Shown in pieces: positions 41,809 through 51,313 of a DNA stretch of 64,000 bases (within the stretch, counting starts at the first letter, position 1; every line of letters starts with the position of its first letter). The stretch covers positions 310,001 to 374,000 of the forward strand of contig BPIC01000001.1 in assembly GCA_026003895.1 (NCBI GenBank), written 5' to 3'. Source of the stretch: Dehalococcoidia bacterium. GTDB lineage: Bacteria; Chloroflexota; Dehalococcoidia; SpSt-223. A model generated the notes under the pieces. The model was given only the letters and a program-made list of their open reading frames with translations. It searched no databases and was not told where the DNA came from. Both the position numbers and the translations under genes were made by a program.

Positions 41809-42558
41809 TTAGGCAGCAACGATATCGAGACTGACCGGCCGTCCGGCCGCATCCGCGAGCGCTGCGGCGAGCGCCGAGCCGAATCGCCCGCGCACCCAGT
41901 CTGCCACGAACGGGTTGGGGGCACGCAGCACGGCGCGGCCGTGATCCCAGCCGGCAAACGTCAGCGGCGCGATATAGGTCTCCCAGTTGGCGCGGCTGAA
42001 CCGGCTGCGCAGCCGGTCGCGGATTGCAGGCCAGTCGATCTGGGTGGAAGTTGGTTCTTGGGGGCTGTCTGTTGTGGAACGTGGATCTTGTCGGTCGGCC
42101 TCCCCGACCGGGACGGCATCGGTGTGGCCGACCGGGGGAGTCGGCTTCGCGGCTGGGGGGGAGTCGGATCGGTCGACCGGGGGAGTCGGGATTCCCGACT
42201 GGCCCCGAAAGCGGATGCGATAGACGGTGGTGCCCGTGCCGCCGTCGGGGCGCACCTGCGGCTCGCGAAGGATCAGTCCCTTTCGCTCGAGGGAGCGGAG
42301 GGCGTTGGCGGCGGTCTCGCGGGTGACGCCGGCGCCGCCATCGAGCCGCGTGCCGTCACGACGGACGATCCCGTCGGTCAGCTGGGAGAGGGAGACGGCG
42401 TCACTCTCTTTTTTCCAACCGAACGTGCGGCGGAAGAGATAGCACATGACCTTCGTTTCGGCGCCGGTAAGGTGGGGCAAGCAGACATCGAAGAACTCGT
42501 CGGGCACTTGGGTATAGCCCGGAGCGGAAAATCCCTCGAATAAGAACGGTTCAGTCAT
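41809..42558 (-). CDS. Winged-helix replication-type protein fused to a DnaA N-terminal domain
   Basis: 249 residues. Residues 15-100 (FDVCLPHLTGAETKVMCYLF, FGWKKESDAVSLSQLTDGIV, VTRETAANALRSLERKGLI) match the winged-helix domain of plasmid and phage replication initiators. A low-complexity Pro/Ser/Thr linker (110-170) follows. Residues about 178-249 (IRDRLRSRFSRANWETYIAPL, LRAPNPFVADWVRGRF) are the DnaA domain-I fold used for helicase and protein contacts. ATPase (AAA+) and DNA-binding domain IV of DnaA are absent. It starts at ATG 42558. The strong promoter and inverted-repeat array upstream suggest tight self-control. The function is inferred as a replication accessory or regulator. Confidence 0.78.
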   Translation of the reverse strand: MTEPFLFEGFSAPGYTQVPDEFFDVCLPHLTGAETKVMCYLFRRTFGWKKESDAVSLSQLTDGIVRRDGTRLDGGAGVTRETAANALRSLERKGLILREPQVRPDGGTGTTVYRIRFRGQSGIPTPPVDRSDSPPAAKPTPPVGHTDAVPVGEADRQDPRSTTDSPQEPTSTQIDWPAIRDRLRSRFSRANWETYIAPLTFAGWDHGRAVLRAPNPFVADWVRGRFGSALAAALADAAGRPVSLDIVAA

Positions 42559-42609
42559 GGCATGCACCGGGAGCAGGTGACCCGTGATCCAGCTCGCCGC
42601 CTGCTTGGC

Positions 42610-42639
42610 AGCATAGCGGCGGATCAACCGGCGTGTCAA
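42610..42639 (-). promoter_or_regulatory. Sigma-70 promoter of the DnaA-domain fusion gene
   Basis: Minus-strand TTGACA (42634-42639) and TATGCT (42610-42615) are separated by 18 bp; the predicted start of transcription is about 45 nt upstream of ATG 42558. Confidence 0.65.
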
Positions 42640-42640
42640 G

Positions 42641-42705
42641 CAACCAAGTTGACCAAACCACAATATGTTGTGCCGATTTCCACAAGTCCAGCATATAGGT
42701 TGTGG
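42641..42705. promoter_or_regulatory. Array of inverted repeats upstream of DnaA-domain gene
   Basis: Three inverted repeats lie in 65 bp: CAAC-caa-GTTG (42641-42651), CACAA-TATG-TTGTG (42659-42672) and CCACAA-N14-TTGTGG (42680-42705). The CCACAA half-sites resemble DnaA-box cores (TTATNCACA). They sit just upstream of the -35 box, so they may be binding sites for the encoded protein or for DnaA. Confidence 0.55.
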
Positions 42706-42903
42706 GGCAGTCCGCAATGACGAGGGCGCTCGGACTGCGCCGGCGGGCTGACAACATTGGGCGGGACGATTGTTGGCCGTGTGAAGTCGGCTGCCGCGCT
42801 GCCTATCGGTGTGACTATCGTCGGCTGGCAGGAGACCGCTGTTGACGGCAGCAGGTCTCTGCCGAGAAACTTCCGGGAGCGCAGTCGGTGCCTGGAGAGC
42901 AGG

Positions 42904-49239: not shown

Positions 49240-50517
49240 TCATCGCGCCGTGCCGGCACCGGCGAGGCGTGCCGGGGCAGCGACGGGGGCACGGCGCTCG
49301 AGGAGCAGGATGTATTCGTGGCTCATTGTCTCGGCGACGGCGCCGGGCACATTGCTCGGGCTGTTGCGGCTGGGGAGGCGCTTGGTGGGGATGCGGCGGA
49401 TGATCACCTCGCAGGGCTCAAGCCCCAGCGGGGCCGCGAGGTCGGCCAAGATGAGATCCGTCGGGAGTTGGACGTCCTTGACGCGCCGGTTGCCCACGAC
49501 GAGCGCTGCCACGCCGCCCGGTCGCAGTAGCCGCGCGATCTCGGTGAGACAGGATGCCATATCGACATAAAAGGAGGCGACTGCCGTTGCACGGCGCGTG
49601 TCGCGGCGTGCGATGGCCGCCACGGCCGCTTCAAGGTTGGGCGATGGCGGCAGCGGCGCGTCGACGGGTTCGCCGCCGAGCAGGCGGAGGTCGAGGTCGC
49701 GGTCGCTGGCGAGGCCGAGCCACTGGGCCGAGAGCCGCGAGAACTGCCCATAGGCGACCGTCGTTCGGCTGTCGCCGTATGGGGGAGAGGTGATGACGGC
49801 GTCGACCGATCCGGGCGCAAGGTCGGCGAGCGGCCGGCGCGAATCGGCGAGGCGGATCTCGGCATCGGCCGTTGGGGTGAAGGTGGCGACGAGCGCGGCG
49901 TTGCGGGCGGCGCGGGCGCGAAAAAGCGCGATTGGGTCCGGTCGGTGACGGGCGAGGCGAGCCGCCGGGTAGCGGTAGAGCTTGAACTCGGAAGCGCGGG
50001 TGTTCGAAGCGAGGCGGACGACTTCGGAGAAGGTCGCGAGGAGCATCGTGCGAGCAGGCTCATCGGTAGTGCGGATGGCGGCATGGAGGGCGCTGAGCGG
50101 CGGGATTACCTCGGGCTTGAACCAGAATTCAAGGCGGGGGATCGGTGGCGGTGGCGGCGGCGCGGCGAGGAGCGCAGGAAGCGCTGCCTCAACGTGTTCG
50201 AGCGCAGCGTTCACAGCCGCTGGGGCGATGGGGGTGGTCTTGGCGCGGGCGATGAGCGCCGCGAGAGGGTTGAGGTCGATGCCGAGCGCTCGGCGTCCTG
50301 CGGCGATGGCCTCGACGAGGACGCTTCCCGATCCGCAAAACGGATCGAGGATTCGGTCGCCCGGCCGGGAGAGCTGGGCGACAAGCCTCGCTGCGACCTG
50401 CGGGATCATCATCGCCGGATAGGAATGGAGGGCGTGGGTGAGCCGTTTCGTAGGTTCGCCGGCATAGTCCCAGCTCGGATCGCGGCGGCGGATCACTGGG
50501 GAGGCGGCGACGAGCAT
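49240..50517 (-). CDS. DNA methyltransferase, N4/N6 type (SPPY motif)
   Basis: A 425-residue SAM-dependent enzyme. Motif I, LDPFCGSGSVLVEA, lies at about 57-70 and the catalytic motif IV, TSPPYGDS, at about 250-257. The SPPY form is typical of N4-cytosine methyltransferases, and motif I before IV gives the gamma-like order. A conserved Arg/Tyr-rich stretch (YAGEPTKRLTHALHSYPAMM) opens the protein. No restriction endonuclease gene is adjacent, so it is an orphan modification enzyme. The start ATG 50517 lies six bases after a TACCCT -10, so it is probably leaderless. Confidence 0.86.
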   Translation of the reverse strand: MLVAASPVIRRRDPSWDYAGEPTKRLTHALHSYPAMMIPQVAARLVAQLSRPGDRILDPFCGSGSVLVEAIAAGRRALGIDLNPLAALIARAKTTPIAPAAVNAALEHVEAALPALLAAPPPPPPIPRLEFWFKPEVIPPLSALHAAIRTTDEPARTMLLATFSEVVRLASNTRASEFKLYRYPAARLARHRPDPIALFRARAARNAALVATFTPTADAEIRLADSRRPLADLAPGSVDAVITSPPYGDSRTTVAYGQFSRLSAQWLGLASDRDLDLRLLGGEPVDAPLPPSPNLEAAVAAIARRDTRRATAVASFYVDMASCLTEIARLLRPGGVAALVVGNRRVKDVQLPTDLILADLAAPLGLEPCEVIIRRIPTKRLPSRNSPSNVPGAVAETMSHEYILLLERRAPVAAPARLAGAGTAR

Positions 50518-50523
50518 AGCAGA

Positions 50524-50529
50524 AGGGTA
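50524..50529 (-). promoter_or_regulatory. -10 box TACCCT for the DNA methyltransferase gene
   Basis: Minus-strand TACCCT, six bases before ATG 50517, without SD; leaderless geometry. Confidence 0.5.
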
Positions 50530-50557
50530 GGGCAGGCGTACCGGCGGGGGGTAGGAG

Positions 50558-51313
50558 CTAGGTCATGATCTGCTGGGCAATCCGGCGGATTTCGGCGCTC
50601 CACGGGTCGTCGGGGAAGCGGATGCTGAACAGGTCGCTCGAGGCGAGGCGGACGACTTCTTCAGAGAGGGGGAGGATGCCGGCGACGGGGGCGTGATAGG
50701 CATCCTCGACCTGCTTCTTGAGTTGGGCGAAGTCGAACGACGGCAGGGCTTTATTGATCACCAGCAGCATTTTGGGCACGTCGAGCTTGCGCGCGACGTC
50801 CACGGTCACGGCAGTGCCTTGGAAGTCCTGACGGTCCGGCCGCATGATGAGCACCAGAATCTCGGAGATGGCGATCGACAGCAGCGTCTCTTCGTTCAGC
50901 CCGGGGTGGGTGTCGATCAGGAGATAGTCGAGCCGAAGACGGGAGCCGAGATCTTGAAAGCCGTCGTTCAGCAGTGAGACGTCGTAGCCTTCGCGCAAGA
51001 CGCGCGCGATCTCACCGGCTTTGATGCTGGAAGGGATGAGAAAGAGCGCCCCTTGGGTGGCTTGGCCGAGGCGGTTGGTCACGTCGTAGGCGGTTTCCTC
51101 GATACGGCAGCGGCCCCAGAGATAGTCGTTCAGCGACCGGACCATCTGCTTTTCGTCCATGCCGAACAGCACGTGAATGCCGGGCGACTGGATATCGGTA
51201 TCGACGACTCCGACGCGCTTCCCCGCGAGGGCGATATTGGCCGCGAGGTTGGACGTAAGGTTGGACTTGCCTGTGCCGCCGCGGAAGGAGTGAATCGAAA
51301 TGATCGTCGTCAC
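50558..51313 (-). CDS. MinD/ParA-family ATPase
   Basis: A 251-residue P-loop ATPase with a deviant Walker A, RGGTGKS, at residues 11-17, a switch I region DTDIQSPGIHVLFG and Walker B LDYLLIDTHPGLN. The signature Lys of the ParA/MinD deviant Walker A is Arg here (R11). Residues 160-190 contain a membrane-reading-like helix MRPDRQDFQGTAVTVDVARK. The start is GTG 51313 with TAGGAG upstream. No ParB or MinC/MinE is next to it, so it may position another complex. Confidence 0.86.
   Translation of the reverse strand: MTTIISIHSFRGGTGKSNLTSNLAANIALAGKRVGVVDTDIQSPGIHVLFGMDEKQMVRSLNDYLWGRCRIEETAYDVTNRLGQATQGALFLIPSSIKAGEIARVLREGYDVSLLNDGFQDLGSRLRLDYLLIDTHPGLNEETLLSIAISEILVLIMRPDRQDFQGTAVTVDVARKLDVPKMLLVINKALPSFDFAQLKKQVEDAYHAPVAGILPLSEEVVRLASSDLFSIRFPDDPWSAEIRRIAQQIMT

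Follow-up and report, generated by a model that had tools for sequence, protein, structure and literature searches.

Phage lambda O binds iterons that lie mid-way in its own gene, beside an AT-rich region (PMC7466680). In pSK41 Rep, a winged-helix N-domain binds Rep boxes within rep, the origin codes for the linker of the protein, and a host-specific C-domain contacts host replication proteins (PMC5703833). Origin-in-gene initiators seem to be assembled from swappable parts, namely a head that reads DNA and a tail that faces the host. E. coli DnaA domain I contacts DnaB via Glu21 and Phe46 and self-associates via Trp6; the contact with DnaB has been demonstrated in E. coli alone (PMC5448010). 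Here, we analyzed a gene of a Dehalococcoidia bacterium in which a lambda O-like winged helix is combined with DnaA domain I. The gene lies in a 64,000-nucleotide stretch of contig BPIC01000001.1, referred to below as the window. In the literature searched, the coverage of which was partial, no description was found of a DnaA-domain-I-fused initiator with an intragenic origin.

The initiator-like gene codes for 249 aa on the reverse strand (positions 41,809–42,558; ATG at 42,558, stop codon at 41,809–41,811). This ATG is the probable true start, the orthologous frame of G002, a genome of the same genus, being open for just 251 codons. A 302-aa version beginning with TTG at 42,717 was rejected because the upstream in-frame starts are not conserved in the 251-aa frame of G002. 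The G002 ortholog is 79% identical over its full length (residues 1–249), with a dN/dS of 0.19 for the whole gene. The sequence-only reading had proposed a winged helix fused to DnaA domain I without AAA+ or domain IV, and this architecture was confirmed by Pfam matches above the cut-offs, by an AlphaFold model and by comparison with PDB structures. The winged helix occupies residues 1–118 (42,205–42,558, reverse strand) and shows a dN/dS of 0.031 against G002. Residues 14–99 match PF04492, Phage_rep_O (E = 3.7e-8, 34.2 bits against a curated cut-off of 28.7), the protein matches PHROG 678, 'replication initiation O-like', at 4e-14, and structure comparison showed that residues 13–122 resemble many winged helices in the PDB. 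The model consists of two folded units joined by a disordered linker (residues 124–172, pLDDT below 50), whose coding DNA lies at 42,043–42,189 (reverse strand). The Pfam scan of the protein gave no AAA+ match, no domain IV match and, at E ≤ 1, zero matches to the RepA_N domain PF06970. Foldseek also returned matches with weak E-values to the DciA helicase loader and the DnaD N-domain.

DnaA domain I forms the C-terminus (residues 174–249; 41,812–42,039, reverse strand). A DnaA_N domain had been placed at residues 178–249, and the profile search found PF11638 at residues 176–235, above its cut-off (E = 6.8e-12, 45.4 bits against 24.6). In the PDB comparison, residues 170–249 matched domain I of B. 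subtilis DnaA (4tps_B) with a Z of 13.6 and an rmsd of 1.9 over 80 residues. The alignment revealed that Trp176, Asn215, Phe217 and Trp221, the equivalents of E. coli W6, N44, F46 and W50, are retained. The position of E. coli E21 holds Asn191 in this domain and Ser in the host's own DnaA. Between the window and G002, the DnaA_N part has a dN/dS of 0.25 at a synonymous divergence of 0.89. A search of 31 genomes of the class detected DciA (PF05258) in just one, and the genus gave no hit, with 7 of 14 control genomes positive; therefore, the C-terminal domain may partner with DnaB directly or with a loader as yet unrecognised.

Like lambda O with ori-lambda, the window gene has an N-terminal Phage_rep_O-type winged helix and, directly after it, iterons about 20–24 bp apart. 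Its C-terminus, however, is DnaA domain I in place of lambda's P-binding domain, and the gene is chromosomal, without a clear AT-rich region and with no P- or DnaC-type helicase-loader gene found adjoining it. RepA_N initiators (pSK41 Rep and the chimeric pPR9 Rep) share with it the winged helix, the origin-coded linker, the host-facing C-domain and the modular exchange of domains (PMC5703833), but here the N-domain is Phage_rep_O, and DnaA domain I takes the place of a DnaD-like primase-binding C-domain. The C-domain has the α1-α2-β1-β2-α3-β3 fold of DnaA and the four equivalent residues listed above, whereas the protein is without AAA+ and the DnaA-box-binding domain IV and carries domain I at the opposite, C-terminal end. 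Six Chloroflexota proteins of the RepO type with a C-terminal DnaA_N (L041, L039, L138, L050, L040 and L042) share this domain pair and its order. They differ from the window gene in locus; L041 and L039 lie on short contigs, and the winged helix is doubled in L040 and L050. The protein is best filed as one that works like lambda O or the RepA_N initiators but bears a new module at its C-terminus; for want of defining features, it belongs to neither RepA_N nor DnaA.

An array of iteron-like repeats, which we consider candidate initiator-binding sites, was located inside the gene at 42,090–42,199 (reverse strand) with a spacing of 22–23 bp. It is a much stronger feature than the repeats upstream of the gene and had escaped the sequence-only reading. 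In both the window and G002, it falls in the linker-coding DNA that separates the sequences of the two domains. CCGAC cores occur at 42,189, 42,167 and 42,144 (also at 42,098 and 42,094), and GTCGG at 42,199, 42,132 and 42,108. TRF reported a period of 23 at 42,128–42,199, and a repeat finder a 45-bp pair. The repeats were assessed by codon shuffles, in which synonymous codons were permuted and the protein sequence preserved. The best direct repeat of the window begins directly after the winged helix, with 17 of 18 positions identical at a lag of 45 bp (p = 0.0025). The CCGAC cores at gene offsets 369, 391 and 414 gave p = 0.014 in the core-count test. In G002, cores at offsets 369, 391, 414 and 436 (spacing 22/23/22) gave p = 0.0005; the G002 array passes the core-count test alone, having no long repeat and not passing the 18-bp repeat test. 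For the conservation test, the cores were defined from the G002 sequence alone. They are identical at 34 of 35 positions between the two genomes, against 81 of 130 (62%) in the remaining linker (p = 1.7e-5). Synonymous divergence is 0.49 in the linker, compared with 0.93 in the winged helix and 0.89 in the DnaA_N part (Fisher p = 0.04 for the linker reduction), and the linker protein shows 56% aa identity and a dN/dS of 0.73. Judged by the kept cores, the low synonymous divergence and this dN/dS, the linker is conserved as DNA in its own right, whereas the amino acid sequence that it encodes is drifting.

Relatives of the winged helix were found in 9 of 400 sampled Chloroflexota genomes, a minority, and in 13 of 158 genomes in the class of G345. 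Their contexts include viral contigs, a place beside parA (L008) and one near a ParB-like gene (L010). Their C-termini vary: DnaA_N is present in the window, G002 and the six proteins named above, and other domains elsewhere. Of 34 ORFs, 28 had their best direct repeat 0–300 nt past the last winged helix, against 19.3 expected (p = 5e-4); the lag was mostly 22–24 or 42–48 bp. A codon-shuffle p ≤ 0.05 was obtained for 20 of the 34, including 12 of 20 validation ORFs (1 expected) that had not been used in forming the idea and among which lambda O served as a positive control; the same test recovered the annotated lambda O iterons, at codon 116. L133 carries five repeats CCCCTGTCCACAGGnGTnGACA of 22–23 bp each. 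The repeat test was not significant in L041, L039, L007, L008 and L138. A further motif, ACAAGAAACAGT, is exact in nine relatives; there it follows the iterons, 73–200 nt from the winged helix, and appears in two codon phases. In the window and G002, it is degenerate (a 9/12 match only, p = 0.15). The window form belongs to a weak, low-confidence candidate unwinding segment after the iterons (42,035–42,090, reverse strand), which is A/C-rich with modestly lower local GC. The use of ACAAGAAACAGTTNNACAA as a specific origin tag was rejected: 79 viral contigs match it, nearly all in other phage genes (e.g., LQETVLQYA-coding) and one in a rep gene. The motif was kept solely to back comparisons within the family; there, it is present in two reading phases.

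One relative, L038, lies on a 1.07-Mb megaplasmid (G209:C2) with zero tRNA genes; parA and the gene that follows it are 5 kb away. The GC skew of this replicon is mostly positive up to 620 kb and then mostly negative to about 1,025 kb; the initiator gene, at 1,029 kb, stands at the edge of the skew minimum. The skew fits an origin there at a resolution short of the gene level, as the minimum is a shallow basin, about 100 kb broad, which runs across the contig ends. Since relatives with this winged helix and with intragenic iterons are found on viral contigs, beside parA and on a megaplasmid without tRNA genes, the lineage is one of initiators of mobile or secondary replicons, with interchangeable C-termini.

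Several side observations concern other RepO-like and DnaA_N-like proteins. In L107 (6052–10803), from the 815-kb plasmid of Miltoncostaea oceani (Actinomycetota), genes for a RepO-like protein, an AAA ATPase and a DnaB-like helicase are consecutive, a lambda O-P-like module. L047 (1–1935) is a Chloroflexota ORF of 645 aa with a different N-terminal region and a C-terminal Pfam DnaA_N; by eye, a second DnaA_N-like stretch lies further upstream. This layout suggests that DnaA domain I was recruited repeatedly. In L010 (5914–7478), the ORF that comes after a RepO-like gene with two winged helices looks DnaA_N-like at its end, so both modules may be split across adjacent genes.

Upstream of the window gene, a sigma-70-like promoter was located at 42,610–42,639 (reverse strand), with TTGACA as the -35 element (42,634–42,639), TATGCT as the -10 element (42,610–42,615) and an 18-bp spacer. 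This promoter had been noted from the sequence alone, and it is kept in G002, where it and about 130 bp of surrounding DNA are 83% conserved. The same reading described three inverted repeats with CCACAA half-sites. A half-site cluster does exist, as the four CACAA/TTGTG sites within 60 bp (42,659–42,704) are the densest in the window; 'three' was overstated, since a single dyad, CCACAATATGTTGTG, is conserved in congeners. This dyad (42,658–42,672), upstream of the promoter, is a likely operator; it is kept in G001 and has one change in G002. A second dyad, CCACAA-N14-TTGTGG (42,680–42,705), is lost in both G001 and G002; its arms are not conserved, and its core AGTCCAGCATATA is. No exact copies of the upstream dyad were found elsewhere in the genome. 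A reading of the CCACAA sites as DnaA boxes was discarded, as the box-like site is absent from G002; a simple pattern search found no TTWTMCACA-type boxes in the window or around dnaA. The upstream array is probably operator or promoter DNA, and the intragenic iterons are the stronger candidate binding sites. In G001 (locus L110, G001:C133 26680–26830), the upstream dyad is 85% conserved beside an esterase homolog. The initiator gene was not found in the G001 assembly, whose contig ends about 90 bp past the conserved dyad, so the locus is cut off.

The window copy resides in the chromosome. On its contig, C1, there are many tRNAs (Trp, Cys, Phe and others) together with core genes, ileS among them, and no GC-skew inversion was seen at the initiator gene (352 kb on C1); on these grounds, a chromid was rejected. 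Next to the gene are a desaturase-like gene and an esterase gene, and the locus is partly syntenic with G002. As the neighbours scanned included no integrase, relaxase or phage gene, the present locus was also rejected as a mobile element. We propose, with a probability of roughly 0.7, that the gene encodes a self-contained replicon initiator with its origin inside its own gene, captured in the chromosome and now a resident gene, whose DnaA domain I tail probably recruits a helicase. Its capture and settlement follow from the core-chromosome locus shared with the congener together with purifying selection. Against this reading stand the lack of a GC-skew inflection at the chromosomal copy, the degenerate unwinding motif and the replacement of Glu21.

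The sequence-only reading had offered both a domesticated plasmid or phage initiator that recruits DnaB, which is favoured here, and a replication regulator or DnaA competitor. The latter gained no positive support because near-exact candidate sites occur nowhere else in the genome (80.5% complete); in G002 they are likewise confined to the initiator gene, and two one-mismatch matches in G001 are about the control level. Such a regulator would bind the promoter dyads and titrate or contact DnaA, DnaB or other domain-I partners, tuning initiation at oriC. The main-chromosome site, conserved synteny and strong purifying selection would suit it, as would the conserved upstream dyad and the kept Asn-Phe-Trp surface of domain I. 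Besides the confinement of the iterons, the distribution of the gene speaks against this role: it was found in 2 of the 3 genus members examined and in no other sampled member of the class, and its relatives are replicon initiators. We regard the regulator as unlikely.

Still less credible is a functionless relic of an integrated plasmid or phage, retained by chance in two species. It would account for the missing skew signature and for the core at gene offset 436, which is mutated to CCGAT in the window. It would also agree with the degenerate state of the unwinding motif. However, a relic is hard to reconcile with a winged-helix dN/dS of 0.031 at a dS of about 0.9, with the conserved promoter and with the near-identity of the iteron cores. 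That the repeats merely mirror a proline-rich, repetitive linker protein and are not binding sites is very improbable: the linker does carry a repeated PTPPV motif and the genome is GC-rich, but codon shuffles preserving the protein still reject this (p = 0.0025 for the window and 0.0005 for the G002 core count), the cores are spread over three codon phases, and relatives carry quite different repeats at the same place.

For the captured initiator, we infer iteron binding and helicase recruitment from the precedents of lambda O, pSK41 Rep and E. coli DnaA, and the chromosomal copy may still initiate. The winged helix (residues 1–118) would probably bind the ~22-bp iterons in its own linker-coding DNA, and DnaA domain I would probably pass the assembled complex to the helicase-loading machinery of the host, either to DnaB directly or to a loader. 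A bolder proposal, to which we give little credence, is that the chromosome of this genus has a second, oriC-independent origin in the gene, where the borrowed domain I would load the replicative helicase without an AAA+ initiator domain, in a class with scarcely any detected DciA, the common loader. As a natural experiment, the family can show what DnaA domain I recruits by itself, and the chimera could reveal the function of this domain in a little-studied phylum. The placement of iterons directly after the winged helix also provides a sequence rule for locating megaplasmid and phage origins in Chloroflexota, no description of which was found in the literature searched.

The organism has a separate dnaA on another contig, C9. 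There (L002 1450–2965; about 51.2–52.7 kb of C9), dnaA lies in two overlapping frames because a G-rich run in the part coding for the P-loop is frameshifted. The frameshift is likely an assembly error because the dnaA of the congener is intact (a 496-aa frame). In the window, a ParA/MinD-like ATPase gene adjoins a DNA methylase gene at 49,243–51,313, about 7–9 kb from the initiator gene; the pair is also nearby in G002 and is possibly part of a captured replicon. On C1, the GC skew between 300 and 495 kb climbs to +0.26 and flips to -0.20 near 470–485 kb, and a tRNA-free stretch from about 207 to 592 kb contains the window. This is perhaps the terminus region.
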